From Bacteroidaceae bacterium (GTDB lineage Bacteria > Bacteroidota > Bacteroidia > Bacteroidales > Bacteroidaceae), in NCBI GenBank assembly GCA_024398435.1, contig JAKSJD010000013.1:1-57132 (forward strand): a stretch of 57,132 nt of DNA, given 5' to 3'. A program made the translations under genes and the position numbers. Each line of letters opens with the position of its first letter. The first letter of the stretch is position 1. Below the pieces are notes generated by a model. It did not search any database and was not told the origin of the DNA. It saw only the letters and a list, made by a program, of their open reading frames with translations. Of the stretch, positions 4,784 through 56,786 are shown in pieces.

Positions 4784-4802
4784 CAAAGCAAAAGCAACGA
4801 AA

Positions 4803-6145: not shown

Positions 6146-6155
6146 CCAAACAAAT

Positions 6156-6881: not shown

Positions 6882-6908
6882 CCACAACCCCAAACCAAAG
6901 ACAAAGAT

Positions 6909-7901: not shown

Positions 7902-7956
7902 TGAGGAAAAAATCAGTTTTCATAGGCGTTTGACACACATTATTAAAAAATAATAG

Positions 7957-7964
7957 TAACTTTG
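7957..7964 (+). promoter_or_regulatory. -7 element for pyrE operon
   Basis: TAACTTTG at 7957-7964 is a perfect TAnnTTTG box. The nearest TTTG (7929-7932) is 24 bases upstream, longer than the usual 19-21, so the -33 element is uncertain. Confidence 0.65.
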
Positions 7965-7996
7965 CAGCCAAAATCAACTTAACATAAAAAACAAAC

Positions 7997-8629: not shown

Positions 8630-8645
8630 GAAAAAAAGATAGAAG

Positions 8646-9116
8646 ATGAAATTAGAAAGTGAAATAAAGCAAGTTGGATTCCCACAGGACAATGTTTATG
8701 CCAAACTGTCCGACCTCAGCAATCTCTCAGCCGTAAAGGAGAAGTTCGACGATCCATCAGCACAGGAACAGCTCAAGCAGCATCTTGGCGAGGACAAGAT
8801 GAACAAGGTGAAGGAGAATCTGCAGTCGTTGGCATTCGATTCCGACAGTGTGAGCATGAACATAGATCCAGTTGGAAATATCGCCATCAAGATAATCGAA
8901 CGCCAGCCAGCCAAGTGCATCAAGTTTGAGTCGACCAATTCGCCAATCAAGTTCAATCTCTGGATTCAGATGCTTCCAGTGACTGATTCTACAAGTAAGA
9001 TGAAGTTGACGGTCGATGCCGATGTACCTTTCTTCCTCAAGGGAATGATTGAAAAGCCATTGAAGGAAGGAATCAACAAACTGGCAGATATGCTTTCGAG
9101 CATGCCATACGAATAA
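8646..9116 (+). CDS. SRPBCC-fold (START/polyketide-cyclase-like) protein
   Basis: A small 156-residue cytoplasmic protein with no signal peptide. The opening MKLES followed by KLSDLSNL, a central segment predicting beta strands (SVSMNIDPVGNIAIKII) and a final helix (LKEGINKLADMLSSM) match the START-like SRPBCC fold, which binds hydrophobic ligands in a helix-grip pocket. I recall such a gene next to pyrE or argH in other Bacteroidales, but cannot confirm that here. The ligand is unknown. It sits 16 bases after pyrE and 23 bases before argH. Confidence 0.75.
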   Translation: MKLESEIKQVGFPQDNVYAKLSDLSNLSAVKEKFDDPSAQEQLKQHLGEDKMNKVKENLQSLAFDSDSVSMNIDPVGNIAIKIIERQPAKCIKFESTNSPIKFNLWIQMLPVTDSTSKMKLTVDADVPFFLKGMIEKPLKEGINKLADMLSSMPYE

Positions 9117-9139
9117 AGCAACAACCCAAAACACGAAAT

Positions 9140-11426: not shown

Positions 11427-11458
11427 TTCATTTCCCACCCCGACTACAATTCCTCTAT

Positions 11459-11998
11459 ATGAAGAAAATAGCACTTATCCTTTCTGTAATGGTTCTCCTG
11501 ATGGCATGCGAAGACGAGGCCACTTCCACCTTCTCGAAGAAATATCGTGTACGCTTCTATTTCGAGATTCAGCAAAGCAGCGAACTCTACAATGCCATCG
11601 GCAATCCTGGGCAGTTCGTGACTATCCGCCCTCTCAATGGTAAGGTAAGGATAGAGAACACGCTTGGAGGCAACGATTATGCGCTCTCACAGATTGGAAG
11701 CCGCGACTTCGAATACGGACTTGGCGGACTTATCGTCGGCACGAGCAGCACTCCCAACATGCAGAACAATTTCGAGATTGTGGCCTACGACCTTGCCTGT
11801 CCCAACTGCGACCGCCAGAGTTATCGCCTCAAGTTGAAGGACGACGGTTCGGCCTCATGCGGACATTGCGGCATAACCTACGACCTCAACAACTTCGGAT
11901 GGATTCTCAATGCCGCCGTCAATCAGGATAAGGAACTTCGCGGATTGTATCGCTATCGAGTTGTCTTCAACGGAATGGCAGTCAATATCACTAACTAA
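11459..11998 (+). CDS. Lipoprotein with four-cysteine Rieske-like C-terminal domain
   Basis: A 179-residue lipoprotein: the signal peptide ends in LMAC with lipid cysteine at residue 17, followed by acidic residues (EDE) that could favour surface display. The C-terminal half has CPNC (114-117) and CGHC (134-137) followed by GITYDLNNFGWIL. That spacing and the C-terminal motif resemble a Rieske domain (CxH...CxxH followed by a Y/F-D-L strand), but both ligand histidine positions carry cysteine. A zinc- or iron-binding rubredoxin-like knuckle is therefore more likely than a [2Fe-2S] Rieske cluster. Function unknown. It lies between the aldo/keto reductase and the flippase (22-base gap). Confidence 0.82.
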   Translation: MKKIALILSVMVLLMACEDEATSTFSKKYRVRFYFEIQQSSELYNAIGNPGQFVTIRPLNGKVRIENTLGGNDYALSQIGSRDFEYGLGGLIVGTSSTPNMQNNFEIVAYDLACPNCDRQSYRLKLKDDGSASCGHCGITYDLNNFGWILNAAVNQDKELRGLYRYRVVFNGMAVNITN

Positions 11999-35500: not shown

Positions 35501-38500
35501 GACGAGTACGAGATGGCCGTCGGCATCGACATTGATTGAGAATCCATTCTCGGCAATACCATGACTGACAATGGAAGCCTCATCCGTTGGCTTATTGAGC
35601 AAGAGCCAGCATTCGCCGGAGAAGTCGTGGTTGTAGAGGTCGAACTTGGCATCGGTAGTAGGACTGTTCTCTGTGCCGTTGAGCTGAAGAGCCGTTGCAT
35701 GGTTGACCTGAGCTCCGTTGAGTTCGCCCATGATGATGATGTTGTCGGCCGTTATCTTATCGTTTTCGATATCTTCGTTGAACTGAACACTGATTACATC
35801 GCCCTTATTGAGCACATAGTCGCTTGGCGATGGATTGCCCACCACTGCAGGGCGCTGAGTGTCCTTCGTGATGATGAGAGGCTCGGAATCGCGCCAAACC
35901 TGGTCGCTGCCTTCGCCTGCATAGGTGCGGACAATGAATGTGTACTTGCCATCAGGGAACACGGTCTTGTCCTTCATATTGATTTCGTAGTTGAACGAAG
36001 TGGTTTCAGGAAGCAACTTCTTGCCCTCCACCGACTTTATCGTCCATTCGTCGGCAAGGGTGTAGTTGGCCTCGCTGCCATACTTATAGAGGAGTTCCAC
36101 ACGCTGAAGGCCTGCGAAATCGCGGTCGTAACCAGAAATCTTGATTGGCAAATCAGTGCCTGAAGCGATGTTGATAACGTCCTCAGTCGATGTAATGACG
36201 GATGGACTGCTGGTTGGCTTGTATTCGGCAATGATTACATGAGTATCACCAATGACTCCGACTGGAGTGAGTGGGTCGTTCTGTCCTGGCGACATGAAGA
36301 GGAGTGTGGCTTCGAGTCGCTGCTCGGAAAGGTCGGTTTGAGTCATCGTCACATATTTCACCACTTCTTCCTTTGGAGGAATGATGAACGACAACTGATT
36401 GAACTTGGCTCCATCGACCTCAACATTTGGCTTGCCCACACTGTCCTGGCCCTTGAGAGAGAAGAGGTACTTCACTGTATCGTTCGACTCTGATTCGTTG
36501 CGGAGGTGAACCTCAAATGTGGCAGGACTGCCCGGTTCGAGACCTGTGAGATGGTCGACCTTCACAGAGATAGAAGGCTTCTCCATCTGCATTGTGGCTG
36601 TCATGATAGTGGTGCCTGGCTGATAGAAGAGTGTCTTCTTCTCGCCTTCGTATGGGTCGTGAGTGACTCCGGCACGTGTGACGAAGATAGGACTTCCCCA
36701 TGGTCCCTCAATCTTATCACCTTCTTCCATAATGTTGTAGATATCTACTGTCAGACGGTCGGCTTCGTTTGGCTTGATGGTGTAAGAGAACTTGCGGGTT
36801 GTGGCATCGGTGGTGTTGTGGTCCTCGTCGAACTTACCCATGATGTGCACACCATTGGTGTTGACGGTTCCTACATAGTTGAACTGGAAACCCCACTTCA
36901 ATACGGCTGATGCCTCATAAGAATGAGTCCATGTATGACCTGAACTTTCAGATGTAGTCACACTTTGTTCGCCAGTGTATTGCGAACCCGTACCGACTGA
37001 AATATTTGAAGGTTGCGAGCTGCCATTGATGGCCTCAACCTTTCGCTGCTCGTTTGCCTTAATGGCATCCTTCCAATCGCGTACATAGCAGTTGCAGAGG
37101 TGAACCGTGTTTTCGTACAATATGCCGTTGATGGCATTCGTAGGGAGAATCATCTTATAACTTGGACCCTCCATCTCGTTGTCGCTGGCAAGACTGCCCC
37201 AAACGAGGGAGTCGGTGTTGTCGGAACCATAACGAGGGTCGGATGGGTCGAGAGATGTGACGAAGATAGCATTGTCGATGCAATCACGAGTGTAACCAGT
37301 GTTTGGCTTGTAGTTGGCATCGTAAATCAAGAGGCTGTCGCGACGCTGAAGGATGATTGGAATCACTTCGTTGAGAATTTCGTACTGAGTGTAGTCGAAT
37401 GTTGTGGCAAATCGACTGCCCATACCCATCTCTTCCTCAAGACCTACATAGAATCGGCCCTGCGAATCGCGGTGAAGACCGATGGTGCGCATCATTCCAT
37501 AGACATTGTTGTAGCTTGTACCGAAATAAACATCGGCATCTGGACCTACAAAGTTCTTGCTGGATGACGTAGTGATGGCCGTTGTGGTAGTGATTGAATA
37601 CGAACTGGCATCATGGTAGGTGTAGTAGGCTCCATACTTGGCATCGGAATTGATTTCGCTCTTGGCTTGAGATGTGTTTACAAGAAGCATACCCAGACCT
37701 GTAGCCACCTTCACTTCAGGACCTAAATAGAGATTGGTAGTTCCCTTGTAGCCACCACCGCCTTGCTTGCTGTGGGAAGTGGTTACGGTAAATGTATTGT
37801 CTTCCTTGAACGAAGCTGAAGAACCAGCGCCTGGTGGGTCACGGAGCACCATAAGAATGTCGGAAGGACCTTCGGTGAGGAAGTTGCTACCCGTTGGCAG
37901 ACCTCCGAACACAAGGACATTGAACTCGCCATTCTTGTCCCAAGGCATTGTGCGGTCGCCGAGATGCAGAATGATATTCAGATTGCGGGTGAATGGAGAA
38001 ACGATATTTGGATAGCCGGCAACGAAACGATAACGGGCATTTCCGAGTGAATCGAGTTCGATATCGCGTACAATGAGTGAATCAGGACAAACCGAACCGT
38101 CTTCGAGCATTACAATCTGCTCGCCACAATATTCGTTGGTAATATCGACAGTGGCTCCAACGAGTGGGTCTTCATAGACAACGGTGTCGCCCGAGTCGTA
38201 GTTGAAATATTTCTCGGCTGCATGAATCTCATATTCGTATTCGCGTGCTATCGTATAAACCGGATAATTGTAGGTATACTTCACTGTGCCATCATCTGCT
38301 ACTTCATAGAGTGGCAATGTAGTCACTTCACCGGTTGTCTTATCCACATAATCGAAAGCATCATCGCCAAAGGCACCATCGTTGTTGGTCACTTCGGTCA
38401 GTTCGATAACTGCATCCGACAAGTAGTTGAGAGTGTAGTTCTCAACAAACTCCACGCTTCGTAAAATACTGTCAACCTCAACTGAATCTGCCTGCAAAAC

Positions 38501-41500
38501 TCCGACATTTGTAGCGTCGAGGCGTGGAAGCGTAACGAACTCAATATCTGGATTGTGGAGCAAACGGGCACTCTCTACCTTATAGTTGCAAGGAGGGAGC
38601 AATGCAAGGAACTCACCTGTGACGGAGTCGGTGATGATATGAAGTTTCTTCACTTCTTCCGTACTTCCTCCACCTACATAGGCACGGCTGTGAACATATT
38701 TCTGGGATTTCTCAGGAATAGCATATATGAGGGTTGAATCAGCATTGTGTGAAACTCCAAGTTCGTCGTATGTCACATTGAACTTATAGTCGCCAACCGA
38801 AAGAACGAGTTCGGCAATACCGATATTATTCGTACCAACGCCACATCCGGCTGTAAGTGTATCCTGAACTTCACCTCCGGCTACACGACCAACTACTGGT
38901 ACCAATGTGTTGTCGAAGAACTGAAGGCCCTTGATTTCCTGGTCGAAATAGAACTTGGTCTTTTCTTCGCCATCAGTTTGGGCTGGCCAAATACCATCGG
39001 CCACGAATGTGTGGTAGTCTTTCTTCACCTCAATGAAGTGGTTGCCGATAGGAACATCGATTGAGAAATGACCGTTATCGTCGGTTTCAAGCATCTTACC
39101 GTCCTTCGAACAGATATTTCCGTCGACATACAACTTGGCTCCCGTTACAGGAATGGTAGTTCCCTCGAAGAATACATCTCCACTTACTGGGAAACTTGAA
39201 ACATCCGTGAAGTCAACATTATTGTGATTGAGCGATGTGGCACTTACATAACAGTTCTTGATGCTTGGACTGAACTCATGGATTCCAAACGTTGGAGTAA
39301 CGGTATAGTTCGTACCATTACTTGCAAACGGAACACCACGAATGAGGTAATTACCATTGGAATCGGTAATGCCATAAATCTTGAGGTCGGCTGGAACGAA
39401 ATCCGACATCTTACCCGAACCAACACTTCCATGATGGTTGTTTGGAACGCCTCCTGTGGCACTGTAGTCGTAGGCACTTGTGATTCCAGTGATTCCTTCA
39501 TCCATTGGAATGTAGAGTGCCAACTGGTCTTCCTGACCCGTAAGGAGATGGTCGTAGTTGGCCAAGATTTCTTCGTTGGTCAGTTGCTTCTTCCACAGAC
39601 GAAGGTCGTCGATATAGCCGGCAAACGAATTGCCAATGCTATCGTGTGGCATTGCAAAGGTAACAGTCGAAACATTCACGGCTGGATTCTCTTCTCCACT
39701 TGAGATAGATGCACCTTCCACCGTCTGGAAGTCCTTCACCTTCAATACCTGCCATGAAGATTTTCCATCACATGTGATATTCAGATGAGTGTACTCGTTA
39801 GGAGTGAGTGTGATGTCGGTCGGCGACTTCTCATAAACAATTTCTGTACCGTCAGTTGATGTCGCCACTGCAAGCATCAAATCATATCCCTCACCACTCT
39901 CTTGGCGTTCGGCATAGAGATGGACAAGACCAGGAATCTCGAAAAGGCTTGAACGAACCACTGGTTCCACGTTTTTGCCTTCATAGATGTCCTTATCGAT
40001 TGCCACCCACATCTGAACAGAGAATGGCTGATTGGCAGCAAAGAGGCTGTGAATGGTGTCGGTAACGTTCACACCACCTGCACCATCGTTGACACGAAGT
40101 GAATAGAAGGCTGGAGTGAGGTCTTGGTCGTCGTGCTTCTCAAGCGAAACCTTTACATCCTTCACTGCTGTTCCCGAACCAAATGTAATCTGACCACCGA
40201 TTGAACCGGATGCCTGACAGAAACCTTCGTCAATCTTTCGCATATCAGAAGTTTGTTCGTTAGTGTCGGAACAAGTAGTGCGGGAAAGCACCTTATACTG
40301 ATAGTAACCACCAACGGCTACATTATTGTCATCGTAAGTGTATGAAGTGGCAGTTCCAGAAACGGAATAAATCATTGCCCAATCCGACTCATTGTTCGAA
40401 CTGAGTGGACGACGATACACTTCATAGTTTGTTTGGGCAGTACCATACTGCTCTGCATTCCATTTCAACTTCACGCTTCCCGCATAGGTTCCCTTTGAGA
40501 CATCAAGTCGGGTGATGTGGCTTGTTCCCTGGATAACGGCAGGAATAGTGTCGGAATAGAATGTCATATCGAGCATATTGATTGCAATTCGATAGTTGTA
40601 GATATCACACGAACTGGTGATGTCCCTATGTGTGAACGAGTGTTCCTTGGCTGAAGTAGAACGAAGTCGGACCGAACCGGCTGTCTGCCATTCTTCCTCT
40701 GCATTGAGTTGGTACTCAACCAAGAATTCCAGATTGCCACTGAGTGGAATCTGTGGATGTGTCCATGTGAGCTTGATGGCGCTCTTGCCTTCCTCGGCAG
40801 AAAGGTGGATTGGAACATCGCGTACAATAGCAACATCGATAGAGCGGGTGATGTCGCTGTATGATTGTTTTGCATCCCATTCGTTTGGAACGAACACCAC
40901 ATCGTATGTGTAAGAAGTGTCGTATTCAAGGGCTACATCAGTGTCGGTGTATGTGCGTTGGGATTCTTCGAGTGTGGCAATCAAAATACGATTGGTATCA
41001 TCATCGCCCTTCACCCTACGATAAACATACCACTTTCCAGGAAACACCGTTGTCTGTGTCGAGCGATCCCAACTGAGGGTAATAGTCTTTTTCCAGATGT
41101 TGTAGTCGCCTCTCAGATTTGTTGGATAAAGCATTGGTTCCACCGAAATTGTCTGGTATGGAATGTAGTAGCGTTGTTCGATGCGAGCCGACTCGTCTAT
41201 GGCGTTTTTGATGCTGAATGACTTATAAACATCCATTCCCGCATAGAAGAGGAGCGAATCGGCATTACTGAATGTTTTTGACAATTTCAAAACGGAAGTA
41301 CTGTCGGTGGTAGTCTTTGAGAACAAAGCGCCTTTACCGTTTGGCTGAGAATAAAGAGCATACAACACAGTGTAGCCATTCTTCGTATATTGACCAAGAG
41401 GAATTTGCTTATCTTTAGCCACACCTCCATCAAAACGATATTCGATTGTTTGGTCGCCAACACGCTTCACCTGTGCAACAACAGTAGGTGTATACAATTC

Positions 41501-41998
41501 GCATTCGAGTTCCTTCATGAATGTCCTATCACGACTTCCGTTATCGTCGATGTCCCATTCTCCAGTAACACTAATGCCCCTGAAACCTTTTTGTATCGTT
41601 TTTGTGGAAGGATAGAAACGGTATTTGCCAATCTCATGGTCGCCTCTGTCGTCGTGGCCAAGATATTGCAACAGACCATAGGTTTCATTATACAGAGTTG
41701 CCACCGCATGGTTCTTTGAACAGTTTGGATAATTGTAGATCTGTGTTTTAGTTCCATCCTTTGCGATGACGTAGAAATTAAGGTTGTGCATCACGTCATC
41801 GAATCCATGGAAGTCTTGGAATATTACCTCAAACTCGAAATACGGATGGTCAGGCGTAATCTTTGCCTCTCCGCGAATCTTCACATAATCCTGAGGATTC
41901 TTCGTATCAGCCATTGCATTGGTTGCAAAAGCCAATCCAACCAACATTGCCATCACAATGCGGCAGCAATGTCTCAATTCATAAAAACTCTTTTTCAT
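32546..41998 (-). CDS. Giant secreted LamG/fibronectin-type protein with T9SS-like tail
   Basis: A 3150-residue exported protein. I chose ATG 41998, which gives a signal peptide (MKKSFYELRHCCRIVMAML, ending ATNAMA); an in-frame ATG at 42217 lies upstream of the promoter. Domains in order: beta-rich start; three fibronectin-III-like modules (about 290-590); a LamG/concanavalin-like domain (about 630-825); carboxypeptidase-regulatory-like inserts (near 610 and 930-1010); a long unassigned centre (about 1010-2040) with a Gly/Ser/Thr-rich part; a Big_5-like domain (about 2050-2090); two more LamG domains (about 2100-2270 and 2310-2490); and a final sorting tail, IFTTSGIRQQQLQRGINIIR then KKVLVK. 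Such proteins are usually adhesins or polymer binders at the cell surface. No catalytic motif was recognised. Confidence 0.9.
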   Translation of the reverse strand: MKKSFYELRHCCRIVMAMLVGLAFATNAMADTKNPQDYVKIRGEAKITPDHPYFEFEVIFQDFHGFDDVMHNLNFYVIAKDGTKTQIYNYPNCSKNHAVATLYNETYGLLQYLGHDDRGDHEIGKYRFYPSTKTIQKGFRGISVTGEWDIDDNGSRDRTFMKELECELYTPTVVAQVKRVGDQTIEYRFDGGVAKDKQIPLGQYTKNGYTVLYALYSQPNGKGALFSKTTTDSTSVLKLSKTFSNADSLLFYAGMDVYKSFSIKNAIDESARIEQRYYIPYQTISVEPMLYPTNLRGDYNIWKKTITLSWDRSTQTTVFPGKWYVYRRVKGDDDTNRILIATLEESQRTYTDTDVALEYDTSYTYDVVFVPNEWDAKQSYSDITRSIDVAIVRDVPIHLSAEEGKSAIKLTWTHPQIPLSGNLEFLVEYQLNAEEEWQTAGSVRLRSTSAKEHSFTHRDITSSCDIYNYRIAINMLDMTFYSDTIPAVIQGTSHITRLDVSKGTYAGSVKLKWNAEQYGTAQTNYEVYRRPLSSNNESDWAMIYSVSGTATSYTYDDNNVAVGGYYQYKVLSRTTCSDTNEQTSDMRKIDEGFCQASGSIGGQITFGSGTAVKDVKVSLEKHDDQDLTPAFYSLRVNDGAGGVNVTDTIHSLFAANQPFSVQMWVAIDKDIYEGKNVEPVVRSSLFEIPGLVHLYAERQESGEGYDLMLAVATSTDGTEIVYEKSPTDITLTPNEYTHLNITCDGKSSWQVLKVKDFQTVEGASISSGEENPAVNVSTVTFAMPHDSIGNSFAGYIDDLRLWKKQLTNEEILANYDHLLTGQEDQLALYIPMDEGITGITSAYDYSATGGVPNNHHGSVGSGKMSDFVPADLKIYGITDSNGNYLIRGVPFASNGTNYTVTPTFGIHEFSPSIKNCYVSATSLNHNNVDFTDVSSFPVSGDVFFEGTTIPVTGAKLYVDGNICSKDGKMLETDDNGHFSIDVPIGNHFIEVKKDYHTFVADGIWPAQTDGEEKTKFYFDQEIKGLQFFDNTLVPVVGRVAGGEVQDTLTAGCGVGTNNIGIAELVLSVGDYKFNVTYDELGVSHNADSTLIYAIPEKSQKYVHSRAYVGGGSTEEVKKLHIITDSVTGEFLALLPPCNYKVESARLLHNPDIEFVTLPRLDATNVGVLQADSVEVDSILRSVEFVENYTLNYLSDAVIELTEVTNNDGAFGDDAFDYVDKTTGEVTTLPLYEVADDGTVKYTYNYPVYTIAREYEYEIHAAEKYFNYDSGDTVVYEDPLVGATVDITNEYCGEQIVMLEDGSVCPDSLIVRDIELDSLGNARYRFVAGYPNIVSPFTRNLNIILHLGDRTMPWDKNGEFNVLVFGGLPTGSNFLTEGPSDILMVLRDPPGAGSSASFKEDNTFTVTTSHSKQGGGGYKGTTNLYLGPEVKVATGLGMLLVNTSQAKSEINSDAKYGAYYTYHDASSYSITTTTAITTSSSKNFVGPDADVYFGTSYNNVYGMMRTIGLHRDSQGRFYVGLEEEMGMGSRFATTFDYTQYEILNEVIPIILQRRDSLLIYDANYKPNTGYTRDCIDNAIFVTSLDPSDPRYGSDNTDSLVWGSLASDNEMEGPSYKMILPTNAINGILYENTVHLCNCYVRDWKDAIKANEQRKVEAINGSSQPSNISVGTGSQYTGEQSVTTSESSGHTWTHSYEASAVLKWGFQFNYVGTVNTNGVHIMGKFDEDHNTTDATTRKFSYTIKPNEADRLTVDIYNIMEEGDKIEGPWGSPIFVTRAGVTHDPYEGEKKTLFYQPGTTIMTATMQMEKPSISVKVDHLTGLEPGSPATFEVHLRNESESNDTVKYLFSLKGQDSVGKPNVEVDGAKFNQLSFIIPPKEEVVKYVTMTQTDLSEQRLEATLLFMSPGQNDPLTPVGVIGDTHVIIAEYKPTSSPSVITSTEDVINIASGTDLPIKISGYDRDFAGLQRVELLYKYGSEANYTLADEWTIKSVEGKKLLPETTSFNYEINMKDKTVFPDGKYTFIVRTYAGEGSDQVWRDSEPLIITKDTQRPAVVGNPSPSDYVLNKGDVISVQFNEDIENDKITADNIIIMGELNGAQVNHATALQLNGTENSPTTDAKFDLYNHDFSGECWLLLNKPTDEASIVSHGIAENGFSINVDADGHLVLVFGGERVVSEKTIDFGNWTYFSCNYIDDFEGSGQSVFNAQIADDYGTTRLFENLPVVSYSANGPIQIGKNFSGAIHELALWNKARSMTESQSQMYTTKEMFTPGLVAYWPMDEGMGNVVHDDIHGYDLNAPVVNWYINAPNKALKLDGTGQLSVNIDPCNIGEYDNYTVETWFKALPQANASIWSANGRMLSLETSTTGSLEFYASGRRIWMSSDSVLDGNWHHFALNMHRNGSTNLYIDGREMAQLQSTDIPVFGSNEVTIGARHSLDSSTAVTEPIDYVGHFAGDIDEFRIWKGTLTGNYVNQQRFERLDPKTVNGLVAYYPFEQTKDNITSFSLLDISTSQCGAATGNGYSEAESTPGLKSVAVLQRLDFDFTTTERSVVITLRDAPSRLQGNTVKVALRDISDRHENISNDINWNFYVDMHSLEWTTDQLKFYSFDTMIGEESSVSFKNTTAETVSWHLEGLPSWLTVNEESGRIGPLSTVTLKFTLQAPKPTSSVTEGIYLFDSEGISIPLPVVVNVYKDQPQWFVDGSQFDANMNIVGKAYVNGILNDNEQSCLAAFIDGTIVGVAYPEYNKRYDTYLLSMTVYGDGTKDAGKTVTFKFWDGKTGIIYPVIMDDTAITFRSNNIWGSYVKPVIFNTTDDVEQTLSLQPAWTWISFFVEPQEKKISNLFSPVAESAVMIKNDTSFDITRAGEWYSSNLDAEVGKMYMVKMSAPAELSIIGKAINMVDTPIDISKGWNWIGFNSAESISVVRTFANLHPKDGDVVKSQNAFAIYNGAWDGTLTALEPGRGYMYKSNAEEDVNFVVTYDADDDAQTVNVKSSRPMATEDTYHFTPVAANLYPTNMTILAQVEIDGTVRNDVEIGVFAGSECREAAKATGDLYFLTIPGEEADPLTFRFYADGQELEATTSEPLVYISNSHYGLPDSPFVISATTADGIHEVSGDSDGATEIFTTSGIRQQQLQRGINIIRSSDGTTKKVLVK

Positions 41999-42110
41999 AT
42001 TCTTTTTTATTTGTACTTCGTAAGGAAAAAGGTTTGTCACCGACTTACGGTCGGTTACATTTCTTTCAATTCTACACCTTATTATATTTATTATACTATA
42101 TTTAAGGCTG

Positions 42111-42140
42111 CAAATATACAATATTTCTACAAAACGACAA
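42111..42140 (-). promoter_or_regulatory. Promoter of the giant LamG protein gene
   Basis: On the minus strand TTG (42140-42138), 19 bases, then TATATTTG (42118-42111). It implies a leader of about 105 bases and excludes the upstream ATG at 42217. Confidence 0.7.
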
Positions 42141-42344
42141 TAATCACATTGGTTTTTTATGCGAGAAACATACAAAATCACCCATGAAGGTCTATTTTCC
42201 ACTCTTCCAAACAACAAGCTGACTACCTCCTTTATCTGGTTAGATTCATGGGGCTTATAATCCCAAATATTGGCAAAGAAACGTTTTTTCTCAACAAATT
42301 TTCAAATTATTCTCATTTTTTCATGTCATATTACAAATTATTAT

Positions 42345-46186: not shown

Positions 46187-47119
46187 TCACCCTCCAATTA
46201 TCGCTTTGATTCCATATTTCCCGAACTGGCGAATGCATCTCTGCTGTTCGGCCTCGGAAGGAGTAGCCATCGGCAGATTCTCGGGGTTGTAGGTCGAACC
46301 CAATTTCTCGTGCTTGCCCTTGCCGATATCATGGTAAGGCAGAAGATTGACTGTCTTTCTTGCCCAAGGAATTGAAGCAAGGAACTGAGCCGACTGCTCA
46401 ATATTCTCTTCGTCGGCATTCACTCCGTCAATCAACGGAATGCGGATGAAGAAGTCGATGCCTCTTTCAGCCAAGAAACGGATGTTGCTGAGAATCTTTT
46501 CGTTGCCGACACCCGTGAATTCCTTGTGCTTCTTCGAGTCCATGTGCTTCAGGTCGACGAGGAACAACTCGCAATTCTGAGCCACTTCCTCCACCACTTC
46601 CTGTGAGGAGAACAATGTTGTGTCCACGCATCGGTGGAATCCTCTCCGTCCCAGTTCTTTCAAGAGTTCGAGCAAATACTGATAGTGCATCAGCGGTTCG
46701 CCTCCACAGATGGTTACGCCTCCGCCCTCGCTGTCTTCCATCACCTTGCGTTCTTTCTCCACCACCTCCATCAGTTGGTCCATTTCCCATTCTTTTCCGC
46801 CTATTCGCATGGCGAGGGTTGGACACACTTCGGCACACTTGCCACACATCTGGCACACTTCCTCATTGGCTTTGATTCCGTCGGGTGTGAGGGTCAGGGC
46901 CTTTTGTGGACAGGCTTCAATGCACGACTTGCATCCGATACATTTCTTCTTCGTGTACATCCGCTGTGGGCGTTCGTCCCAACCCTCTGGATTGTGACAC
47001 CACACACATCGAAGCGGACAACCCTTCATGAAGATGGTCGTACGAATGCCTGGACCGTCGTTGATGGCAAAGCGTTTTATGTCGAAGATTTTAGAACTCG
47101 TCATTCTCTGTTCGGGCAA
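46187..47119 (-). CDS. Glycyl radical enzyme activase (for hydroxyproline dehydratase)
   Basis: A 310-residue radical-SAM protein that installs the glycyl radical on its partner. The SAM cluster motif CPLRCVWC has Cys34, Cys38 and Cys41. An inserted double ferredoxin domain carries CIGCKSCIEAC (60-70) and CQMCGKCAEVC (89-99), as in activases of the non-pyruvate formate-lyase type. GGGVTICGGEPLMH is the conserved SAM-binding strand. The start at 47119 overlaps the dehydratase gene by 29 bases; ATG 47104 (MTSSKIF) is an alternative. The partner gene lies directly upstream, so the pairing is firm. In clostridia the equivalent is called HypE. Confidence 0.93.
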   Translation of the reverse strand: MPEQRMTSSKIFDIKRFAINDGPGIRTTIFMKGCPLRCVWCHNPEGWDERPQRMYTKKKCIGCKSCIEACPQKALTLTPDGIKANEEVCQMCGKCAEVCPTLAMRIGGKEWEMDQLMEVVEKERKVMEDSEGGGVTICGGEPLMHYQYLLELLKELGRRGFHRCVDTTLFSSQEVVEEVAQNCELFLVDLKHMDSKKHKEFTGVGNEKILSNIRFLAERGIDFFIRIPLIDGVNADEENIEQSAQFLASIPWARKTVNLLPYHDIGKGKHEKLGSTYNPENLPMATPSEAEQQRCIRQFGKYGIKAIIGG

Positions 47120-49490
47120 TAATCTCGTTTTGAAGTTGTTCGGTCATATCGTTGAAGTAGTCGCTGTAGCCAGCCACTCTGACGAGCAAGTCCTTATAGT
47201 TGTCAGGATTTTTCTGAGCATCGAGCAGTGTGGCAGTGTCGACGATATTAAACTGAATATGGTGTCCTCCCAGAGAGAAGTAAGTGCGGATAAGGCTTGC
47301 CAACTTCTTGAGGTCTTCCTCGCGCTTCATGAGGTTAGGCACGAATCTCACGTTGAGCAACGTACCGCCACTCTTTGTCTGGTCGAGTTTGCCGAGCGAC
47401 TTGATGACCGATGTAGGTCCTTGAGTGTCGGCACCGTGAGCAGGGGAAGTTCCGTCGGAAATGGCAAAGTGTGCCAATCGTCCGTTAGGAGTGGCACAGC
47501 AGACACTGCCGAAATAGTTGTGGCAAGTGGTGCTGAGCATATTGAGATAAGTCTTTCCGCCTCGAGTGTTTGGTCGGCCCTCGATGGCATTGACCAAGTC
47601 GTTATATACTCGAACAGCGATTGAGTCGGCATATTCATCGTCGTTGCCGAAGAAAGGCGTGTGGTTGATGATGTATTGGCGCATCTTTTCCTCGCCCTCG
47701 AAGTTCTTCTTCATGGCATCCATCAACTCTTCAATCGTGAATCGCTTGTCCTCGATGACGTGTTTCTTGATTGTAGTGAAGCAGTCGGTGATGGTGCCGA
47801 GGCCAGTACACTGGATGTAGGTCGTGTTGTAGCGGGCACCTCCGCTGTAGTAGTCCTTGCCCTTTGCTATGCAGTCGTCGATGAACAGACTGAGGAATGT
47901 GGCAGGGGCATAGAGTGAGAACATGCGCTCGATATAGTTGTTGACAGCCAATTTGAGGTTGACGAAATATTCCATCTGGCGCTTCCAAGCATCGTAGAAC
48001 TGCTCGAACGTGGTGAATGTGCGAGGGTCGCCCGTTTCGATTCCGAGACGTTTGCCCGTGTTAGGGTCGATTCCGTTGCCGAGCATGATTTCGAGAATCT
48101 TCGGAGTGTTGAGATAACCTGTGAGGATGTAGGCCTCCTTACCGAATGCACCCACTTCGATGCATCCCGAGCAACCGCCTTCGTTGGCATCGCCCTGAGT
48201 CTTGCCCTGACGAACGAGTTCCTTGGTGTAGGTGTCGGGATTGAACACAGATGGATAGCCGAAGCCTTGACGGATGACCTTGCAGCCAGCAATGAGGAAA
48301 TCATCTGGAGTCACCTTGCTGATATGGATTGACAGACCTGGCTGCAATTCGTGGAGCTCTTCCTGCACCTCAAGCATGATGTATGAGAGTTCGTTGGTTG
48401 CATCGTTACCGTCGCGGTCGATTCCGCCTATGTTGATATTCGTGAAGTCGTTGTATGTACCCGATTCCAGAGCTGTGATTCCCACCTTTGGAGGAGCAGG
48501 TTGGTTGTTGAACTTAATCCAGAAGCAACTGATGAGTTCCTTCGCCTTCTCGCGAGTCATCGTTCCGTCCTCAATTCCCTTCTGATAGAAAGGCCAGAGG
48601 TGTTGGTCGATGTGTCCTGGATTCATGCAGTCCCATCCATTGAGTTCGGTCACGGTACCGAGGTGGACGAACCAATACATCTGAATGGCTTCCCACATGT
48701 CGCGAGGAGCATAGGCAGGTACGTGATGACAAACGTCGGCAATTTTCAGGAGTTCGGCCTTGCGCTGGGCATCCTCACATTCGGCAGCCATCTTCTCAGC
48801 CAACTGTGCATGACGCTCTGCAAACAGGATGGCAGCATCACACGAGATGGCCATTGCCTCCAGTTCCTGCTGCTTGTCGGTAGCCTCAGGGTCGTGGATA
48901 TAGTCGAGGTTCTGGATGTTCTCCTCGATCATTCGCTTGCAGTCGAGCAATCCGCGGCGATACATCTTGCCGTCCATTGCCGTGTGTCCGCCGGCACGCT
49001 GTTCCATGAATTCGGTGAACACGCCACTGTGGTAAGCTTCTTCCCATTCCTTGCTCACGTGGCCGAAGATTCTCTCTCTCTGAGTCTGTCCCTGCCAATA
49101 AGGAATCACGTCGCGCTCATACTGGTCGATGTCAGCCTGAGAGATGTGGTAAGGCTGGAGTTCACGAGTGTCGAGCACGTGGAGGTCGTCCACAGAGTGG
49201 CAAGTGAGTTCAGGGAAAGTAGGCACAGCCTTAGGCACCGGTCCTCTCTCGCCCACGATGAGTTCGTCATCACCGATATATATGGTTTTCTTCTTGCAGA
49301 TTTCGTAGAAGTTCTTAGCGCGGAGTACGGCAATAGGCCATTTTCCCTCGTTCTCACGGTAGAAAGCCGTTTCGATGAGAGCACGTTCGATAGAGAGTGT
49401 AGTAGGAGTGTCCAGACTGAGCTGGTGTAGACGTTTGATGCGGTCGTTCATACCGCCGTCGTTGTTCGGATACTTAAGAGGAAAATTCAT
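47091..49490 (-). CDS. hypD: trans-4-hydroxy-L-proline dehydratase (glycyl radical enzyme)
   Basis: A 799-residue glycyl radical enzyme. The radical site is Gly774 in RVAGYSDYF. The active site GGCSGCIEVGAFGKEAY gives Cys443 and Glu445, the Cys-x-Glu pair of the hydroxyproline dehydratase branch; RPNTRGGKTYLNMLSTTCH and GGTLLNVRFVP also match it as I recall the clostridial enzyme. It removes water from trans-4-hydroxyproline to form pyrroline-5-carboxylate, which ProC reduces to proline. proC is not in the window. ATG 49490 is used; ATG 49451 is possible. This is not the hydrogenase-maturation HypD. Choline or glycerol dehydratase are less likely by these motifs. Confidence 0.88.
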   Translation of the reverse strand: MNFPLKYPNNDGGMNDRIKRLHQLSLDTPTTLSIERALIETAFYRENEGKWPIAVLRAKNFYEICKKKTIYIGDDELIVGERGPVPKAVPTFPELTCHSVDDLHVLDTRELQPYHISQADIDQYERDVIPYWQGQTQRERIFGHVSKEWEEAYHSGVFTEFMEQRAGGHTAMDGKMYRRGLLDCKRMIEENIQNLDYIHDPEATDKQQELEAMAISCDAAILFAERHAQLAEKMAAECEDAQRKAELLKIADVCHHVPAYAPRDMWEAIQMYWFVHLGTVTELNGWDCMNPGHIDQHLWPFYQKGIEDGTMTREKAKELISCFWIKFNNQPAPPKVGITALESGTYNDFTNINIGGIDRDGNDATNELSYIMLEVQEELHELQPGLSIHISKVTPDDFLIAGCKVIRQGFGYPSVFNPDTYTKELVRQGKTQGDANEGGCSGCIEVGAFGKEAYILTGYLNTPKILEIMLGNGIDPNTGKRLGIETGDPRTFTTFEQFYDAWKRQMEYFVNLKLAVNNYIERMFSLYAPATFLSLFIDDCIAKGKDYYSGGARYNTTYIQCTGLGTITDCFTTIKKHVIEDKRFTIEELMDAMKKNFEGEEKMRQYIINHTPFFGNDDEYADSIAVRVYNDLVNAIEGRPNTRGGKTYLNMLSTTCHNYFGSVCCATPNGRLAHFAISDGTSPAHGADTQGPTSVIKSLGKLDQTKSGGTLLNVRFVPNLMKREEDLKKLASLIRTYFSLGGHHIQFNIVDTATLLDAQKNPDNYKDLLVRVAGYSDYFNDMTEQLQNEIIARTENDEF

Positions 49491-50255: not shown

Positions 50256-51953
50256 TTAATGACTCAGAATATAATTATATATCTGCATCACGTCGGTGGC
50301 ATTCACCTTTCCGTCGCTGTTCACATCCTCCGATTCGCCGGCAGCGATTGGGAAGTAGTTAGCAGCTTTGCCCCATTGTTCCTTTAATTGTGGGATTACA
50401 CTTTGCTTTGCAAATATATACGCATTTGTCACACAATTAATTTCATACCCTAACGATTCAAAGTTGTTGGATAGGCACATGATGAATTTAAGATTTGTAT
50501 ATAAAAATGCGAATTGCTCGATTGTTGTGACTGTCTCAGGAATAAACAAGCATGTAATGCCTTCCATCAAAGCATATTTACGAATTCCGGTAACAGGCTT
50601 GCCGTTCACAGTGGAAGCGATTTCCACAATTTGCGATGCAGGTGAGACAAGAAATACAGAATAAGATTTGTTGTCCTTCGTATAGTACAATATCGTGCCT
50701 TCTCCCTTATAGCCCAGTTCCGGCAAATCGATGTTCAAGTTGGTCAGGTTGTTGCAGTATGCAAAGTACCTGCTTTTATTTTCATCATACGTCAGGCTTT
50801 TCACCTTTGCAGTGGAAGGGATAGTCAGCGACTTCAGATTTGCACAATAATCAAAAATACGCAAATCTACAGTTGCCCAATCCGAAGGGTTGATAACGAC
50901 ATCAGTAAAGCCGGAGTTATTCACCAGCCACGACAAGTCCACAGAAGAATCAATATCCCCTGTGCCTTCAAAGATTATTGTCGATCCGTCGCATTCCGAA
51001 AACATTTTCTTCATTATGCGTACGAAGTCGGCCATTGATGCAGCGTAATAAAACTTGGAATCAGTGCAGCGTTTGAATGCATTTTCATCAATTGTGATAC
51101 TGTTCACATGAGGTATGTGTATTTCCAGATGATGGTTATAAGAAAACGCATTCTTTCCTATGCTTGTCACCGTTTTAGGAATATAGACGCACATTTCGTC
51201 ACATATCATAGAGAAAGCATAGTCCCCAATGTGAGTGACACCTTCCTCGATGTTTACAGCCGTAATAGTCTTATCATGCCAAGGCTCATAGTTGTTGTTG
51301 TAATCCTTCATCTTTCCCTTTCCATAGATAGTGAGCACACCATTCACCAGCGACCAATTGACATTATCACCGCAATTGCCACCATCGAATGTTTCGATGT
51401 TCGTGAAGTTCTTCCATGTATCAGCAGCCTTATAAGCCGAAGCAGCACCAAGAGGCACATAGAGGGTGCAGCTGCTCATGTCCACATTCTGAAAAGTATT
51501 GCTGCTAATCGATACCGGACTTGCCATTTTTGCAGCGACCGACTTCAATCCCGTGCAACGCATGAATGCTGCAGTTCCGATTTTCACCACCGAACTCGGA
51601 ATTTCAATGCTTGTCAAGCCGGTGCAACCAGAGAATGCACACATTCCGATCTTCTGAATTGTGGAAGAAAGAAACACGGAAGTCAATTCCTCACATCCAT
51701 AGAATGCATATTCGTCGATTCCGACCACCGAATAAGAGTATCCGCCAATCGAAACACTGTTTGGAACAGCCACATTGCCCATGTAATGAGCATCGCCCGC
51801 CACCACTACAAGCGTACGGCTCGTAGCATTATCGACACTATAACAAATCTCCACACCTTCAGCATTCGCCACCTTATAGTCGTAGTCAGACTCCGCGAAG
51901 GCATTAGTCATTCCAGCCAGTGCAAGGCCAATGATGAGTAAAAGTTTCTTCAT
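50256..51953 (-). CDS. BspA-like leucine-rich-repeat secreted protein with dockerin-like end
   Basis: A 565-residue exported protein with signal peptide MKKLLLIIGLALAGMTNAFA. Three blocks of 23-residue BspA/LRR_5 repeats follow (about 70-160, 225-310 and 350-510), separated by caps such as GGNCGDNVNWSLVNGVLTIYG, which is also found in the lipoprotein at 16199. The C-terminus EDVNSDGKVNATDVMQIYNY is a single calcium-binding repeat of dockerin type (D-x-N-x-D-G). A lone repeat of this kind is common at the ends of Bacteroidales secreted proteins and need not mean a cellulosome. There is no T9SS-type tail. Probable role: adhesion. Confidence 0.88.
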   Translation of the reverse strand: MKKLLLIIGLALAGMTNAFAESDYDYKVANAEGVEICYSVDNATSRTLVVVAGDAHYMGNVAVPNSVSIGGYSYSVVGIDEYAFYGCEELTSVFLSSTIQKIGMCAFSGCTGLTSIEIPSSVVKIGTAAFMRCTGLKSVAAKMASPVSISSNTFQNVDMSSCTLYVPLGAASAYKAADTWKNFTNIETFDGGNCGDNVNWSLVNGVLTIYGKGKMKDYNNNYEPWHDKTITAVNIEEGVTHIGDYAFSMICDEMCVYIPKTVTSIGKNAFSYNHHLEIHIPHVNSITIDENAFKRCTDSKFYYAASMADFVRIMKKMFSECDGSTIIFEGTGDIDSSVDLSWLVNNSGFTDVVINPSDWATVDLRIFDYCANLKSLTIPSTAKVKSLTYDENKSRYFAYCNNLTNLNIDLPELGYKGEGTILYYTKDNKSYSVFLVSPASQIVEIASTVNGKPVTGIRKYALMEGITCLFIPETVTTIEQFAFLYTNLKFIMCLSNNFESLGYEINCVTNAYIFAKQSVIPQLKEQWGKAANYFPIAAGESEDVNSDGKVNATDVMQIYNYILSH

Positions 51954-52256: not shown

Positions 52257-53615
52257 TCACCACTCAATCAACAACAATGGCCAAAATTGGTATTCTTTAT
52301 CCCCTGCCAATATCATAATATTCCATTTATGAAAATTAGTCTGAAATTTGACAGTCTTTATAATTTCTGTATCGCGAGTTGCATATTTGTCTTCAACCTC
52401 TTTCGTAAAAACATCGATAATATCACCATGCAACAAACTCTTGCACAAATTAAAGAAGTGCTCTAACTCAAAATAATCTAAACCATTTCTACGAGATATA
52501 TCCACATAAAAATATGACATATTAGTTTTCTCAGGAACAAAGACGGTTCCACAGAAACGATATAGTCCAAATATTGGAGACGGCAATTCAACTATATTGT
52601 GTCTATTTTCATCAACATTTATTGGCAGATGGCATTGGGGTATTATACATCTAGCGATGTAGCTTAATGAATACCCATACTTATACTCCGATTTCAAACA
52701 AGATTCAAGATTATCTAATCTGCATATTTTTGTCGGAATATTTCGGGCGGCATAAATTAGCTGCGCCTTCTTTATAACCCCTTCATCATTTGTCACCAAC
52801 ATATCACAATATGATGCATAATATGCATGTATCGCATCAGTGATAATATTTACCATTGATTTTTTTTTGTCTCTACTATATCCATTTAACGCTAATGCTA
52901 CATATTCCGCTATGAATACACTTTCATCATTATTGAAATTACTTTTTTCTATTGCGCTTTTTAATATTTTAGAAATATCTTTTTTCTCATCATTAGCATA
53001 CAATTGCTTAAGTTGTTGACTTCGTTGATTAACCGGCAACCTATTAATATGGCTTAATGCTTTGTCCAATTCAGATGTTCTAATAGATTTAAGTACTATT
53101 GACTCCATATGTTCATCTGTAAGAATTGTGGATAACGTTTGTAAAAGCACGCTTAACCATTGATTGCAATTCTTTGATTCACAGTCATTAGTATTTGATA
53201 GCAGATTAGGAAAAGGTATTTCTCCTATGACATTCATACAAAAATTATATAATTCATCTCCCAACAATTGCCTTAAATATTGACATACGAGCTTCGGTTC
53301 GAAACCTTTATTAAACAATTCTATAAAAATATTATCATTACAAAACAATCTTTCAGGTGAAATTTTGCGCATATACATAGTATTGTTTGAGCAATCAAAA
53401 TCCAGATAGTGTTGACCACAAATTTGCGAAATTGTAGCTATGTCTTGTTTATACTTTTCTGTATTGGCATTTGACCTTTTGAGATCCAGAATATGAGCTT
53501 TAGAATAAGAGAATATGAAATAATCTTTATATTGTATTAACGCATCGTATTCCGTCTTATATCTTTCTGATTTTAAATATGACACTATATTTTCATCCAA
53601 ATATATTGTTAACAT
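52257..53615 (-). CDS. PIN-like nuclease-fold protein beside restriction enzyme
   Basis: A 452-residue protein, AT-rich and Lys/Asn/Ile-rich unlike the housekeeping genes. It opens MLTIYLDENIVSYLK (Asp7, Glu8), has FSYSKAHILDLKR (Ser38, His41, Asp44) and later SYCDMLVTNDEGVIKKA (Asp271, Asp277). That order of acidic residues on strand ends is what PIN-like metal-dependent nucleases show. I cannot assign a named family, and the last ~150 residues (after about 300) have no match I know. It lies 33 bases downstream of the restriction-methylation gene on the same strand, so it is very likely part of the same operon. A nuclease or toxin role in defence is inferred. Confidence 0.72.
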   Translation of the reverse strand: MLTIYLDENIVSYLKSERYKTEYDALIQYKDYFIFSYSKAHILDLKRSNANTEKYKQDIATISQICGQHYLDFDCSNNTMYMRKISPERLFCNDNIFIELFNKGFEPKLVCQYLRQLLGDELYNFCMNVIGEIPFPNLLSNTNDCESKNCNQWLSVLLQTLSTILTDEHMESIVLKSIRTSELDKALSHINRLPVNQRSQQLKQLYANDEKKDISKILKSAIEKSNFNNDESVFIAEYVALALNGYSRDKKKSMVNIITDAIHAYYASYCDMLVTNDEGVIKKAQLIYAARNIPTKICRLDNLESCLKSEYKYGYSLSYIARCIIPQCHLPINVDENRHNIVELPSPIFGLYRFCGTVFVPEKTNMSYFYVDISRRNGLDYFELEHFFNLCKSLLHGDIIDVFTKEVEDKYATRDTEIIKTVKFQTNFHKWNIMILAGDKEYQFWPLLLIEW

Positions 53616-53648
53616 AATAAATTGATTGTTACATTCATAAACTATAGA

Positions 53649-56600
53649 TTATGATTTTCCTTCTACTATTTTGATTTCTTCTTCTGTGAGACCATATAAT
53701 TGATATACACGACTGTTGATTTCCTCTTCGGTAGATTCAATCTGATTACGTATCTCCATACATTTCTGTTGGCTGTTTAAGAAATAGTCCTCCCATTCAT
53801 CTTGCTGACTAAGTGTAAGACGGACCTTCTGTTTTTTCAACTCTTTCTTCAATTCTGCAAAATCCAACATGTCAAATTCTGCTAAAGCCGCACTGACTTT
53901 CTCTATTCCTAAATTCTCTTGAATGCGCCTAACGAATCTTGCTCTCTGTTTCTGAAGGTCGGAATTGAGGTTCAGCATCTTGTCTGCAAGTGCCGACAAA
54001 TCGGATGAATCAGATAAATCAGGGATTGGAATTTGTTCGAAATACTGTGGTTTCACTTCGATATATCCGCCATTACGCACAACGCAAATACTTGTAAGGA
54101 AAAACCAAACAATGCGGGAATTGAGAACGCATAGCAATGATTTGCTTTCTGTTGGAAGCATACATGCCGGTGCTGAGATTATGGTTCCCGTTGTATCAAA
54201 ACTAAATTTGCCCTTATTCTGCAAGTTACCCCAAATGATTTTAGGTTGATAGAATAGATTATGATACGCACAATTTCTCAAATTGTAAGGTGTATTGCCT
54301 TTATCATATCTGGCGCTCAACTTTGGTTCGAAAGCCTCCAAGTGTCCCTTTATTGCAGGATATTCGTCAATATTAATTGCTGGTATATCATCATAACCAT
54401 TGTGAGTGCAAATTAGATATTTTTCAATTGGGATATTACTCCACTGACATAAGTCTTTTCCTTCATACACACTCTTTATGATTTCAGCTGACTTGGCATC
54501 GACAGAAATAATTCTCTCTTTTGTAGGGCCGTCAACAATGAAAGCTTCATTTAAAGCAGTCTTTACTCCATAATAACTTTTTCCATATACATTTCTGATT
54601 GGTTTAAATGTGGAAATCTTCTTCTTGATTGCAACGGCTTCCACCGGATGGAAACTCCAACTACTCGAATCCAACGAATCTTGCTCAACCATTGTGGTAT
54701 TCACGGCTGCTATCTCTACGTTTCCTTGCATTGAATGTGGAATCTTTATATATGGAAAGACATTGCCACTATTGTTTTGCTTGCTTAATATAAGAATTAT
54801 TGGATAGGTGGTAGCACCTTCAAAGATTTGGACTTCAGTAAAGTCCACGCATGTTTCAACCTTCGTCTTTTGAGAAATGTATTGTCGTAAATTTTGCCCA
54901 GCAGTCGTTTTATCGAATGTATTGGAAATGAATCCGAAGATTCCACTTGACTTCAATATGTTCATTCCATGATTATAAAAGTAGGAGAACAAATCGCCAT
55001 CAGGGGTATATACTTCATATGATTTTTTATAGTATTCTATTTCTTTTGCAGACAGCAACTCGGCCCGGACATACGGAGGATTGCCGATAACTACATCAAA
55101 TCCACCATTGATAAAGACTTGTGGGAATTCAGCTTGCCAATCGAAGGCTTTTTCTCCTGCAACATCTGGGTCGGATATCAAAGAATTGCCACACTTGATA
55201 TTATTGTTTAATGACGACAATTTCCTATTTGGCTTAGCAGTACGAAGCCATAAAGACAAACGAGCAATTTCTACGCTTTCTTCGTTAATATCAACTCCGA
55301 ACAAATTGTTTTCGAGGATGGAGTTTTCTATATTTTGGAATACTATTTGTGAACCTGTAATTCGTGCTTGCATCTCATCTATTTTATGGTGTTCATCCAT
55401 CAAGAACCGCAGAGCGGCATTGAGAAAGGCACCGCTACCACATGCGGGATCGCAAATTGTGATGTGCAATAGCCATTCACGATAAGTATCCAAAAGCTCC
55501 AGCATCTTTTGCTTTGTAGCCTTCTGACGGTTGCGGTCATCAAGAAACTTCTCTTCTGCAATACCGAGTTCCGCCATCTTCTCGGAACAAAGCTTGCCTA
55601 CTGTGTTTTCAACTATATATTTTGTAATATACTGCGGAGTATAAAACACTCCATCTTTCTTGCGTTTCGAAACAGCTGGACCTTCACCCCTCTGAAGTTG
55701 GTTGGTCACATCCTCTATTTCTGTAAGGGAGTTTTCAAATATATGTCCAAGGATATTTACATCTACTTCGCTGACAAAATCATATTCACTCAATCGACGT
55801 GTGTGGGTTGCTAATAATTCGTCGGATATCGTGATACTATCCAGCACCTCGTCTGGCTTGAACATTCCACCGTTGTAGGCAAATATATCATATTCCTTCC
55901 CATGGAAACCCGTATCAAGATAGCCGAAATACTTGCGAATACGGCTATAAAGACTGATATTTTCATCCAAATCAAGTAGTTGTCGCCATTGGTCAATTAT
56001 TTTTACCATTGAATTGGGAGGCAACAATCCTTCGTCTTCTGCAAAGAAAATGAATAGCAGGCGGTCAAGCAACTTCTGGGTTTTCTTGAAAAGCAATATT
56101 TTCCATTCAGCAGTGCTATGCACCCCTTCTTCCGTCGTGTTGTTTTGCAATATATCATCAAACAATTCACGTTTGAAGGCAATATAGTCTTTATAGAGTT
56201 TATTGGTTATCTGTTCCTCGCTTGATACACTTTCACTCTTTATGGATTTAGGTAAGTTACGCTTTATGTTTTCATAACTGAGACACAACCATAATATGTC
56301 AAACTCCTCACGAGAAAGCGAAAACAAATTCCATTCTATATAATCAACGGCATTGTCTATGTAAAAACGTAGTTTCTGAAAGTTTGAGATAACTACATAT
56401 GTCGCATTTCTATGTTGGTTCTTGTAGCCAAATGCTTGACTCTCCACTTTGTCGATATCAGGCGTTTTCATATCTTTCAATTCTATTACGCCCACCACAT
56501 CATTATTCACGAGTATGGCACCATCCGACTTTTTTGAATCTTTCACATCTTTTTTCTCTCTAACAAGATTATATTCGGAATCTGGTTTTAGCGTATATCC

Positions 56601-56786
56601 AAGTATGTTTACAAAAAGGTCTCGGAGAAAGCCATCTTGAAACTCTTCTTCTTTTATCGTCTTGATGATATTCTGTCTTTGTACATCATGGAAATATGAA
56701 CAAAACTTTGAATATGCAACATCAAGTTCTTTGCTATTAAGCAAAGCAACATATTTGTTTAAGATGTTATTCTGAAATAATGCCAT
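53649..56786 (-). CDS. Type IIG-like restriction enzyme/DNA adenine methyltransferase
   Basis: A 1045-residue single-chain protein. N-terminal PD-(D/E)xK nuclease: Asp88, then GVIELKD with Glu102 and Lys104. A helical linker follows. The methyltransferase core has SAM motif DPACGSGAF (Asp446) and catalytic NPPY (569-572), typical of N6-adenine methylation. From about 740 a TaqI-like specificity domain (IKSVYEGKDLCQWSNI, NGGYIEVKPQYFEQIPIP) reads the DNA target, then a coiled-coil tail. So cutting, methylation and recognition lie in one polypeptide. A -7 box lies 25 bases before ATG. AT-rich codon use suggests horizontal transfer. The PIN-like gene follows in the same operon. Confidence 0.92.
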   Translation of the reverse strand: MALFQNNILNKYVALLNSKELDVAYSKFCSYFHDVQRQNIIKTIKEEEFQDGFLRDLFVNILGYTLKPDSEYNLVREKKDVKDSKKSDGAILVNNDVVGVIELKDMKTPDIDKVESQAFGYKNQHRNATYVVISNFQKLRFYIDNAVDYIEWNLFSLSREEFDILWLCLSYENIKRNLPKSIKSESVSSEEQITNKLYKDYIAFKRELFDDILQNNTTEEGVHSTAEWKILLFKKTQKLLDRLLFIFFAEDEGLLPPNSMVKIIDQWRQLLDLDENISLYSRIRKYFGYLDTGFHGKEYDIFAYNGGMFKPDEVLDSITISDELLATHTRRLSEYDFVSEVDVNILGHIFENSLTEIEDVTNQLQRGEGPAVSKRKKDGVFYTPQYITKYIVENTVGKLCSEKMAELGIAEEKFLDDRNRQKATKQKMLELLDTYREWLLHITICDPACGSGAFLNAALRFLMDEHHKIDEMQARITGSQIVFQNIENSILENNLFGVDINEESVEIARLSLWLRTAKPNRKLSSLNNNIKCGNSLISDPDVAGEKAFDWQAEFPQVFINGGFDVVIGNPPYVRAELLSAKEIEYYKKSYEVYTPDGDLFSYFYNHGMNILKSSGIFGFISNTFDKTTAGQNLRQYISQKTKVETCVDFTEVQIFEGATTYPIILILSKQNNSGNVFPYIKIPHSMQGNVEIAAVNTTMVEQDSLDSSSWSFHPVEAVAIKKKISTFKPIRNVYGKSYYGVKTALNEAFIVDGPTKERIISVDAKSAEIIKSVYEGKDLCQWSNIPIEKYLICTHNGYDDIPAINIDEYPAIKGHLEAFEPKLSARYDKGNTPYNLRNCAYHNLFYQPKIIWGNLQNKGKFSFDTTGTIISAPACMLPTESKSLLCVLNSRIVWFFLTSICVVRNGGYIEVKPQYFEQIPIPDLSDSSDLSALADKMLNLNSDLQKQRARFVRRIQENLGIEKVSAALAEFDMLDFAELKKELKKQKVRLTLSQQDEWEDYFLNSQQKCMEIRNQIESTEEEINSRVYQLYGLTEEEIKIVEGKS

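Follow-up and report, generated by a model that had tools for sequence, protein, structure and literature searches.

The window analysed here is the whole of a 57,132-base contig from a Bacteroidaceae bacterium whose genome assembly is 77.56% complete. At its right end, both intact and both on the minus strand, lie a gene for a type IIG restriction endonuclease-methyltransferase (P0002) and a gene for a 452-residue protein (P0001) with a PIN fold in its predicted model. P0001 has the look of a second phage-defence layer that moves between loci, and not of one half of a fixed two-gene machine. The explanation that we favour, and that we hold to be somewhat probable, is that P0001 is a one-protein split-PIN ribonuclease (RNase) without an antitoxin, carried as a portable abortive companion behind the type IIG enzyme. 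An earlier note on this DNA had called the two genes a possible undescribed defence module. That description is too strong for the pair, and is a fair one for the PIN-like family, which is absent from the libraries searched and has one lineage linked to restriction genes.

Results and discussion

A predicted split PIN fold in P0001

The gene for P0001 occupies 52257..53615 on the minus strand, as do all of its parts described here. In the predicted model the PIN-like fold is divided between two blocks. The N-terminal half (residues 1-90, 53346..53615) holds D7, S38, H41 and D44, with a predicted local distance difference test score (pLDDT) of 84-96. The C-terminal half (residues 240-320, 52656..52898; pLDDT 74-96) holds D260, H263, C270, D271, D277 and K283. 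The two are separated by a helical insertion within the fold (residues 91-239, 52899..53345), for which the confidence of the model is mostly low. The C-terminal domain that follows (residues 321-452, 52260..52655) is without a fold assignment.

The PIN-like superfamily is defined by three or four conserved acidic residues. Relatives of P0001, which come mostly from Bacteroidota records, were collected by a contig scan with one degenerate pattern, which misses relatives lacking that pattern. Ten of the 73 PIN open reading frames (ORFs) were cut off or outside 400-520 residues and were excluded from alignment A2 and from the tree. Across the 64 aligned sequences D7 and D44 are each present in 63 (one gap), H41 is present in 62, and position 38 is serine in 57 and threonine in six. 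D260, H263, C270, D271, D277 and K283 are found in all 64. The aligned relatives are only 17-26% identical to the window protein, so this conservation is not due to chance. Taken together, the fold in the model and the conserved acidic residues counted in the sequence suggest that P0001 is a member of the PIN-like superfamily. Asp7, Ser38, His41, Asp44, Asp271 and Asp277 had been picked out in the earlier note and correctly placed, and the acidic ones among them are near-invariant; Asp260 was overlooked. The note had also proposed structure prediction as a check, and the model is indeed PIN-like.

No usable match to P0001 was found in the four family libraries searched, and no ATPase or HEPN family was matched in them. 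Against the PADLOC models, including the PDC and HEC models, there was no match at an E-value (E) of 1 or less. The best PDC/HEC match among the 64 sequences was to PDC-M11A (two members, E 5.3e-4), which was taken as chance. It is fair to say that P0001 appears, from its model, to belong to a PIN-like family that is unnamed in these libraries. Beside the PIN gene in the window there is no ORF of at least 60 residues on the same strand, up to the next gene on either side, that could encode an antitoxin. Likewise, no small neighbour of at least 70 residues recurs in three or more of the 73 PIN loci.

Restriction genes beside one PIN lineage

With the window excluded, a restriction gene is the next gene within 500 bases in 7/73 PIN relatives, compared with 21/578 other same-strand ORFs in the same loci. 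The remaining 66/73 are an upper bound for relatives without an adjacent restriction gene, as several PIN loci are cut short on one side by the edge of the contig. Some restriction gene is present anywhere in the examined stretch at 14/73 loci. In the neighbour count, restriction genes were recognised through similarity to seeds and through motifs. Some of the seeds came from the same loci and were named by eye, including HsdR and HsdM of L020. Pfam confirmed the HsdS of L020 and the genes of L021, L022, L023, L024 and L017. L024, with a 148-residue ORF between the PIN gene and an IIG-like gene upstream, was not counted as adjacent.

The association is concentrated in one subclade. A maximum-likelihood tree groups the window PIN with those of L020-L023 (support 100/99). 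The window and L023 are long branches that meet, and the grouping survives the removal of either (Shimodaira-Hasegawa-like approximate likelihood-ratio test, SH-aLRT, 95 and 99). All five members adjoin restriction-modification genes, which come from several unrelated kinds of restriction system. In the window the neighbour is the type IIG enzyme; in L023 it is an IIG enzyme of the DUF7149/DUF7814 type, 56 bases downstream. The PIN gene of L020 is preceded, 46 bases upstream, by a type I HsdS gene; the operon also contains an AIPR gene and genes judged by eye to be HsdR- and HsdM-like. A methylase with an M.Eco57I_C domain, itself after an Eco57I-like enzyme, lies 160 bases upstream in L021, and HsdR lies 12 bases upstream in L022. 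On the tree, the restriction-adjacent label (eight rows) requires four changes compared with 7.7 in shuffles, and none of 500 shuffles was as low. The earlier note had asked whether homologues of its two proteins co-occur as neighbours: the pair in general is rarely adjacent, whereas all five members of this PIN subclade lie beside restriction genes.

A convergent gene is located 1-15 bases past the PIN gene in three of these loci (L020:11396-12232, L021:11364-12341 and L022:11411-12310). The L020 copy is Mrr-like by Pfam and those of L021 and L022 are similar to it by clustering. As the three loci share this gene and differ in their upstream restriction genes, it appears that the restriction genes were swapped next to a PIN gene and an Mrr-like gene that remained in place.

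Genomes were also drawn without regard to neighbours, in sets of 393 and 301 with some genomes in both. Eight carried a PIN relative, and in six of these it adjoins restriction genes (G000, G016, G048, G145, G377 and G625). In G048 and G145 the PIN gene survives only as a broken remnant. In G520 there is no restriction gene beside the PIN relative. None was seen in G531 within 10 kilobases, a stretch that begins at a contig end 780 bases before the PIN gene.

Two further neighbours were observed among the PIN loci. In L068:4301-9513 the PIN relative overlaps by four bases the gene of a 1250-residue protein without a Pfam match. In L023:6262-7863 a 533-residue protein, also without a Pfam match, is encoded six bases upstream of the PIN gene that precedes the IIG enzyme.

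The type IIG enzyme and its neighbours

P0002 (1045 residues; 53649..56786, minus strand) matches the PADLOC model REase_MTase_IIG over residues 1-1042 (E 2.8e-283). Pfam identifies Eco57I (E 1.5e-45), N6_Mtase and TaqI_C (E 1e-12), with Eco57I and TaqI_C above the cut-off. The S-adenosylmethionine-binding motif DPACGSG is at residues 446-452 (55431..55451), the methyltransferase catalytic motif NPPY of the Eco57I domain at 569-572 (55071..55082) and the TaqI_C specificity domain at 834-921 (54024..54287). Toward the N-terminus, SDGAIL at residue 87 and IELK at 101 contain D88 and E102-L-K104 (56475..56525), which we take to be a PD-(D/E)xK-like nuclease motif. HSDR_N on residues 83-145 is below its cut-off (18.6 compared with 25.1 bits). 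These domains and motifs make P0002 a complete type IIG enzyme, with nuclease (by motif only), methyltransferase and specificity domains in a single chain. The earlier description of the enzyme as complete thus holds, and both ORFs and their spacing on one strand were exact.

The genes are separated by 33 bases (53616..53648), within which there is no terminator-like site on the minus strand. The arrangement suggests that they may be co-transcribed. The G+C content is 37.8% for the IIG gene and 30.9% for the PIN gene, compared with 46.0% for the whole window. Of the 17 genomes of the genus that were examined, only the window's own carries the PIN gene, which is therefore accessory. Relatives of the IIG enzyme at E 1e-50 or better are present in 80/393 genomes drawn from the order and 8/301 drawn from the family, the window's own included, with at most two candidates scored per genome.

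Does the enzyme in turn keep company with PIN genes? A profile of the 64 PIN sequences found no PIN relative in the best-scoring 40 of more than 100 IIG loci, several of which end at a contig edge. In 38 shorter IIG loci (L093-L130), which partly overlap the 40, it found only the window's own copy. A PIN neighbour was seen for only one other full-length relative of the window enzyme (G016/L083, 37.7% identity), where the order is reversed and the PIN gene comes first, 11 bases upstream of the IIG gene. A fixed two-gene IIG-PIN system, as the earlier note had envisaged, is rejected: in the sets of 40 and 38 IIG loci the profile found no PIN gene but the window's own, and most PIN relatives show no adjacent restriction gene.

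The L083 locus (2664-11541) has in series the PIN gene, the type IIG gene, an AAA_15/OLD-TOPRIM gene and a helicase-like gene. It looks Gabija-like, with a helicase presumably of the UvrD kind.

A same-strand gene begins within 100 bases downstream in 14/32 IIG relatives with enough downstream DNA, against a background of 76/197. A close downstream partner is thus not supported as a special trait of this group, and the statement that type IIG enzymes normally act alone provides no contrast. A close upstream neighbour was found in only 1/34 IIG relatives, and this was the enzyme's own N-terminal piece. The IIG gene therefore looks like the first in its unit. By Pfam, the 14 close partners include one each of DUF4062, HD-CE, Cap4 nuclease with STAND pieces, AAA_15, a methyltransferase and Mrr_cat_2. 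The others are one DsrE, one AAA below the cut-off and six without a Pfam match. To our knowledge DsrE is not a defence family, and we claim no enrichment of defence genes among these partners. In L131:722-5071, which contains the closest full-length relative of the enzyme among the matches listed (62% identical), a DUF4062 gene lies 24 bases downstream, in the place of the PIN gene.

Relation to known systems

The published systems are compared here through excerpts of their reports. DS-3 (DefensePredictor) is described as a one-protein PIN phage-defence system without a cognate antitoxin, in which one part of the PIN domain is N-terminal and the other C-terminal (PMC13092281). Mutation of its catalytic residues abolishes defence, and the authors of that work propose that the protein inhibits itself until infection (PMC13092281). 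P0001 shares this layout, as a single protein with its PIN fold divided between the N and C terminus. Phage defence has been demonstrated for DS-3, whereas P0001 is a candidate known from its sequence and model. The excerpts on DS-3 mention no restriction companion (PMC13092281). PDC-S70, whose single gene encodes a PIN nuclease domain and was found as a candidate by embedding (PMC12988326), is by its description a candidate one-gene PIN defence protein like P0001.

A 2012 proposal couples restriction with nucleases that cause suicide or dormancy (PMC3506569), and restriction coupled with HEPN RNases has been described (PMC3710099). PrrC is an RNase encoded with the type Ic restriction-modification system PrrI as a second defence layer (PMC3506569, PMC3710099); the putative RNase of the window may hold a similar place beside its type IIG enzyme. 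PrrC is a HEPN RNase with an ABC ATPase and a type I partner, whereas P0001 is PIN-like and has an IIG partner. The latency of PrrC through the restriction complex is established; for the window pair such latency is hypothetical. TgvAB is a case of extra defence genes embedded in a type I cluster (PMC11411939). The window may resemble it in having such a gene in or beside a restriction operon; TgvAB is GmrSD-like and its genes are different. No report of this PIN family or of an IIG-PIN pairing was found in the portions of the open-licence PMC literature covered. A 2024 preprint by Payne et al., which we know through citing papers, reportedly deals with defence genes embedded in immune operons.

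To judge from the model, P0001 is not a small stand-alone PIN toxin of the VapBC kind. VapC toxins have a VapB partner, and their uninterrupted PIN fold is contained in a chain of about 132 residues, whereas P0001 has 452 residues, an insertion and an extra domain. It is also longer than the 169-residue chain of the minimal protein-only RNase P (HARP), a tRNA processing enzyme.

Competing explanations

In the explanation that we favour, the type IIG enzyme would be the first layer, methylating host DNA and cutting unmodified phage DNA. P0001 would be a second, abortive layer against phages that escape it. The helical insertion and C-terminal domain probably keep the PIN RNase silent; when infection disturbs the cell it would cut host or phage RNA, phage production would stop and the cells carrying it may benefit. 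An auto-inhibited RNase is the simplest reading because there is no visible antitoxin and most relatives have no restriction neighbour. An RNA-level or abortive layer had been suggested in the earlier note and is plausible.

Several observations weigh against this explanation. The whole-model pLDDT of P0001 is just 71.8, and Foldseek by itself is weak (best E 0.39). No Pfam PIN family was matched by P0001 or by any of the 64 sequences at E 0.01, and there is no PIN protein among the PDB sequence matches. The excess of restriction neighbours across the PIN family is modest (odds ratio 2.8, p 0.028), and many neighbours, judged by eye, appear unrelated to defence. The subclade has only five members, of which two meet on long branches and two others, L020 and L022, are close relatives. 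The likeness to DS-3 is one of layout, taken from a description.

Could the restriction enzyme itself hold the PIN RNase inactive by contact, as in PrrC, until a phage that inhibits restriction frees it? The two genes would then be one functional system. Their adjacency on one strand and the restriction neighbours of the whole subclade are consistent with this, and PrrC-PrrI is a proven precedent for a coupling proposed to be general (PMC3506569, PMC3710099). However, it is difficult to see how a single conserved contact could serve partners that include window-type IIG, DUF7149/DUF7814-type IIG, type I and Eco57I-like enzymes, and such unrelated partners make this guard less likely. The scarcity of adjacent restriction genes in the broader PIN family and the 40 IIG relatives without PIN also argue against it, and we regard it as unlikely. 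Or, are these two mobile genes that act separately and became neighbours by chance in a defence island? The close downstream genes of IIG relatives, near the background count and mostly unlike each other, would agree with this, as would the modest excess in the PIN family. The subclade, restriction-linked throughout, and the six of eight PIN-bearing genomes in the neighbour-blind draws argue otherwise, and we give this explanation the same low credence.

Slightly more doubtful to us is a guard that is indifferent to the type of restriction system. Restriction-modification genes of one type or another would always accompany this split-PIN lineage, and the RNase would be triggered by a signal that failing restriction systems have in common. 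In place of contact with one enzyme, that signal might be unmodified DNA left uncut, an anti-restriction protein or free ends. A toxin that stabilises the restriction cassette by addiction, with no direct antiviral role, would be in keeping with the PIN domains of VapBC toxins (PMC13092281) and with the HipA-like genes near some PIN relatives (3/76 close neighbours). The lack of a same-strand antitoxin ORF of at least 60 residues beside the PIN gene, and a chain of 452 residues compared with 132 in VapC, make this very improbable.

Other features of the window

At 46187-49490 there is a two-gene pair, presumably encoding a glycyl-radical enzyme and its activating enzyme. The gene at 47091-49490 is matched at E 1e-100 or better in 9/17 genomes of the genus, its own included. 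The gene at 50256-51953 encodes a secreted protein that we take to be leucine-rich-repeat-like, with what is presumably a dockerin-like motif at its end. A secreted-looking ORF of 3223 residues, for which the automatic ORF call gives TTG as the start codon, occupies 32546-42217 on the minus strand.

Conclusions

P0001 points to a PIN-like family that four family libraries have missed, and one lineage of this family is linked to several unrelated restriction types. It offers a direct test case for the proposal of echeloned immunity joined to suicide or dormancy nucleases (PMC3506569), here with a putative RNase that is PIN and not HEPN and with a restriction partner that is not fixed. If the lineage does respond to failed restriction of any type, then one portable insurance effector would serve many restriction systems.
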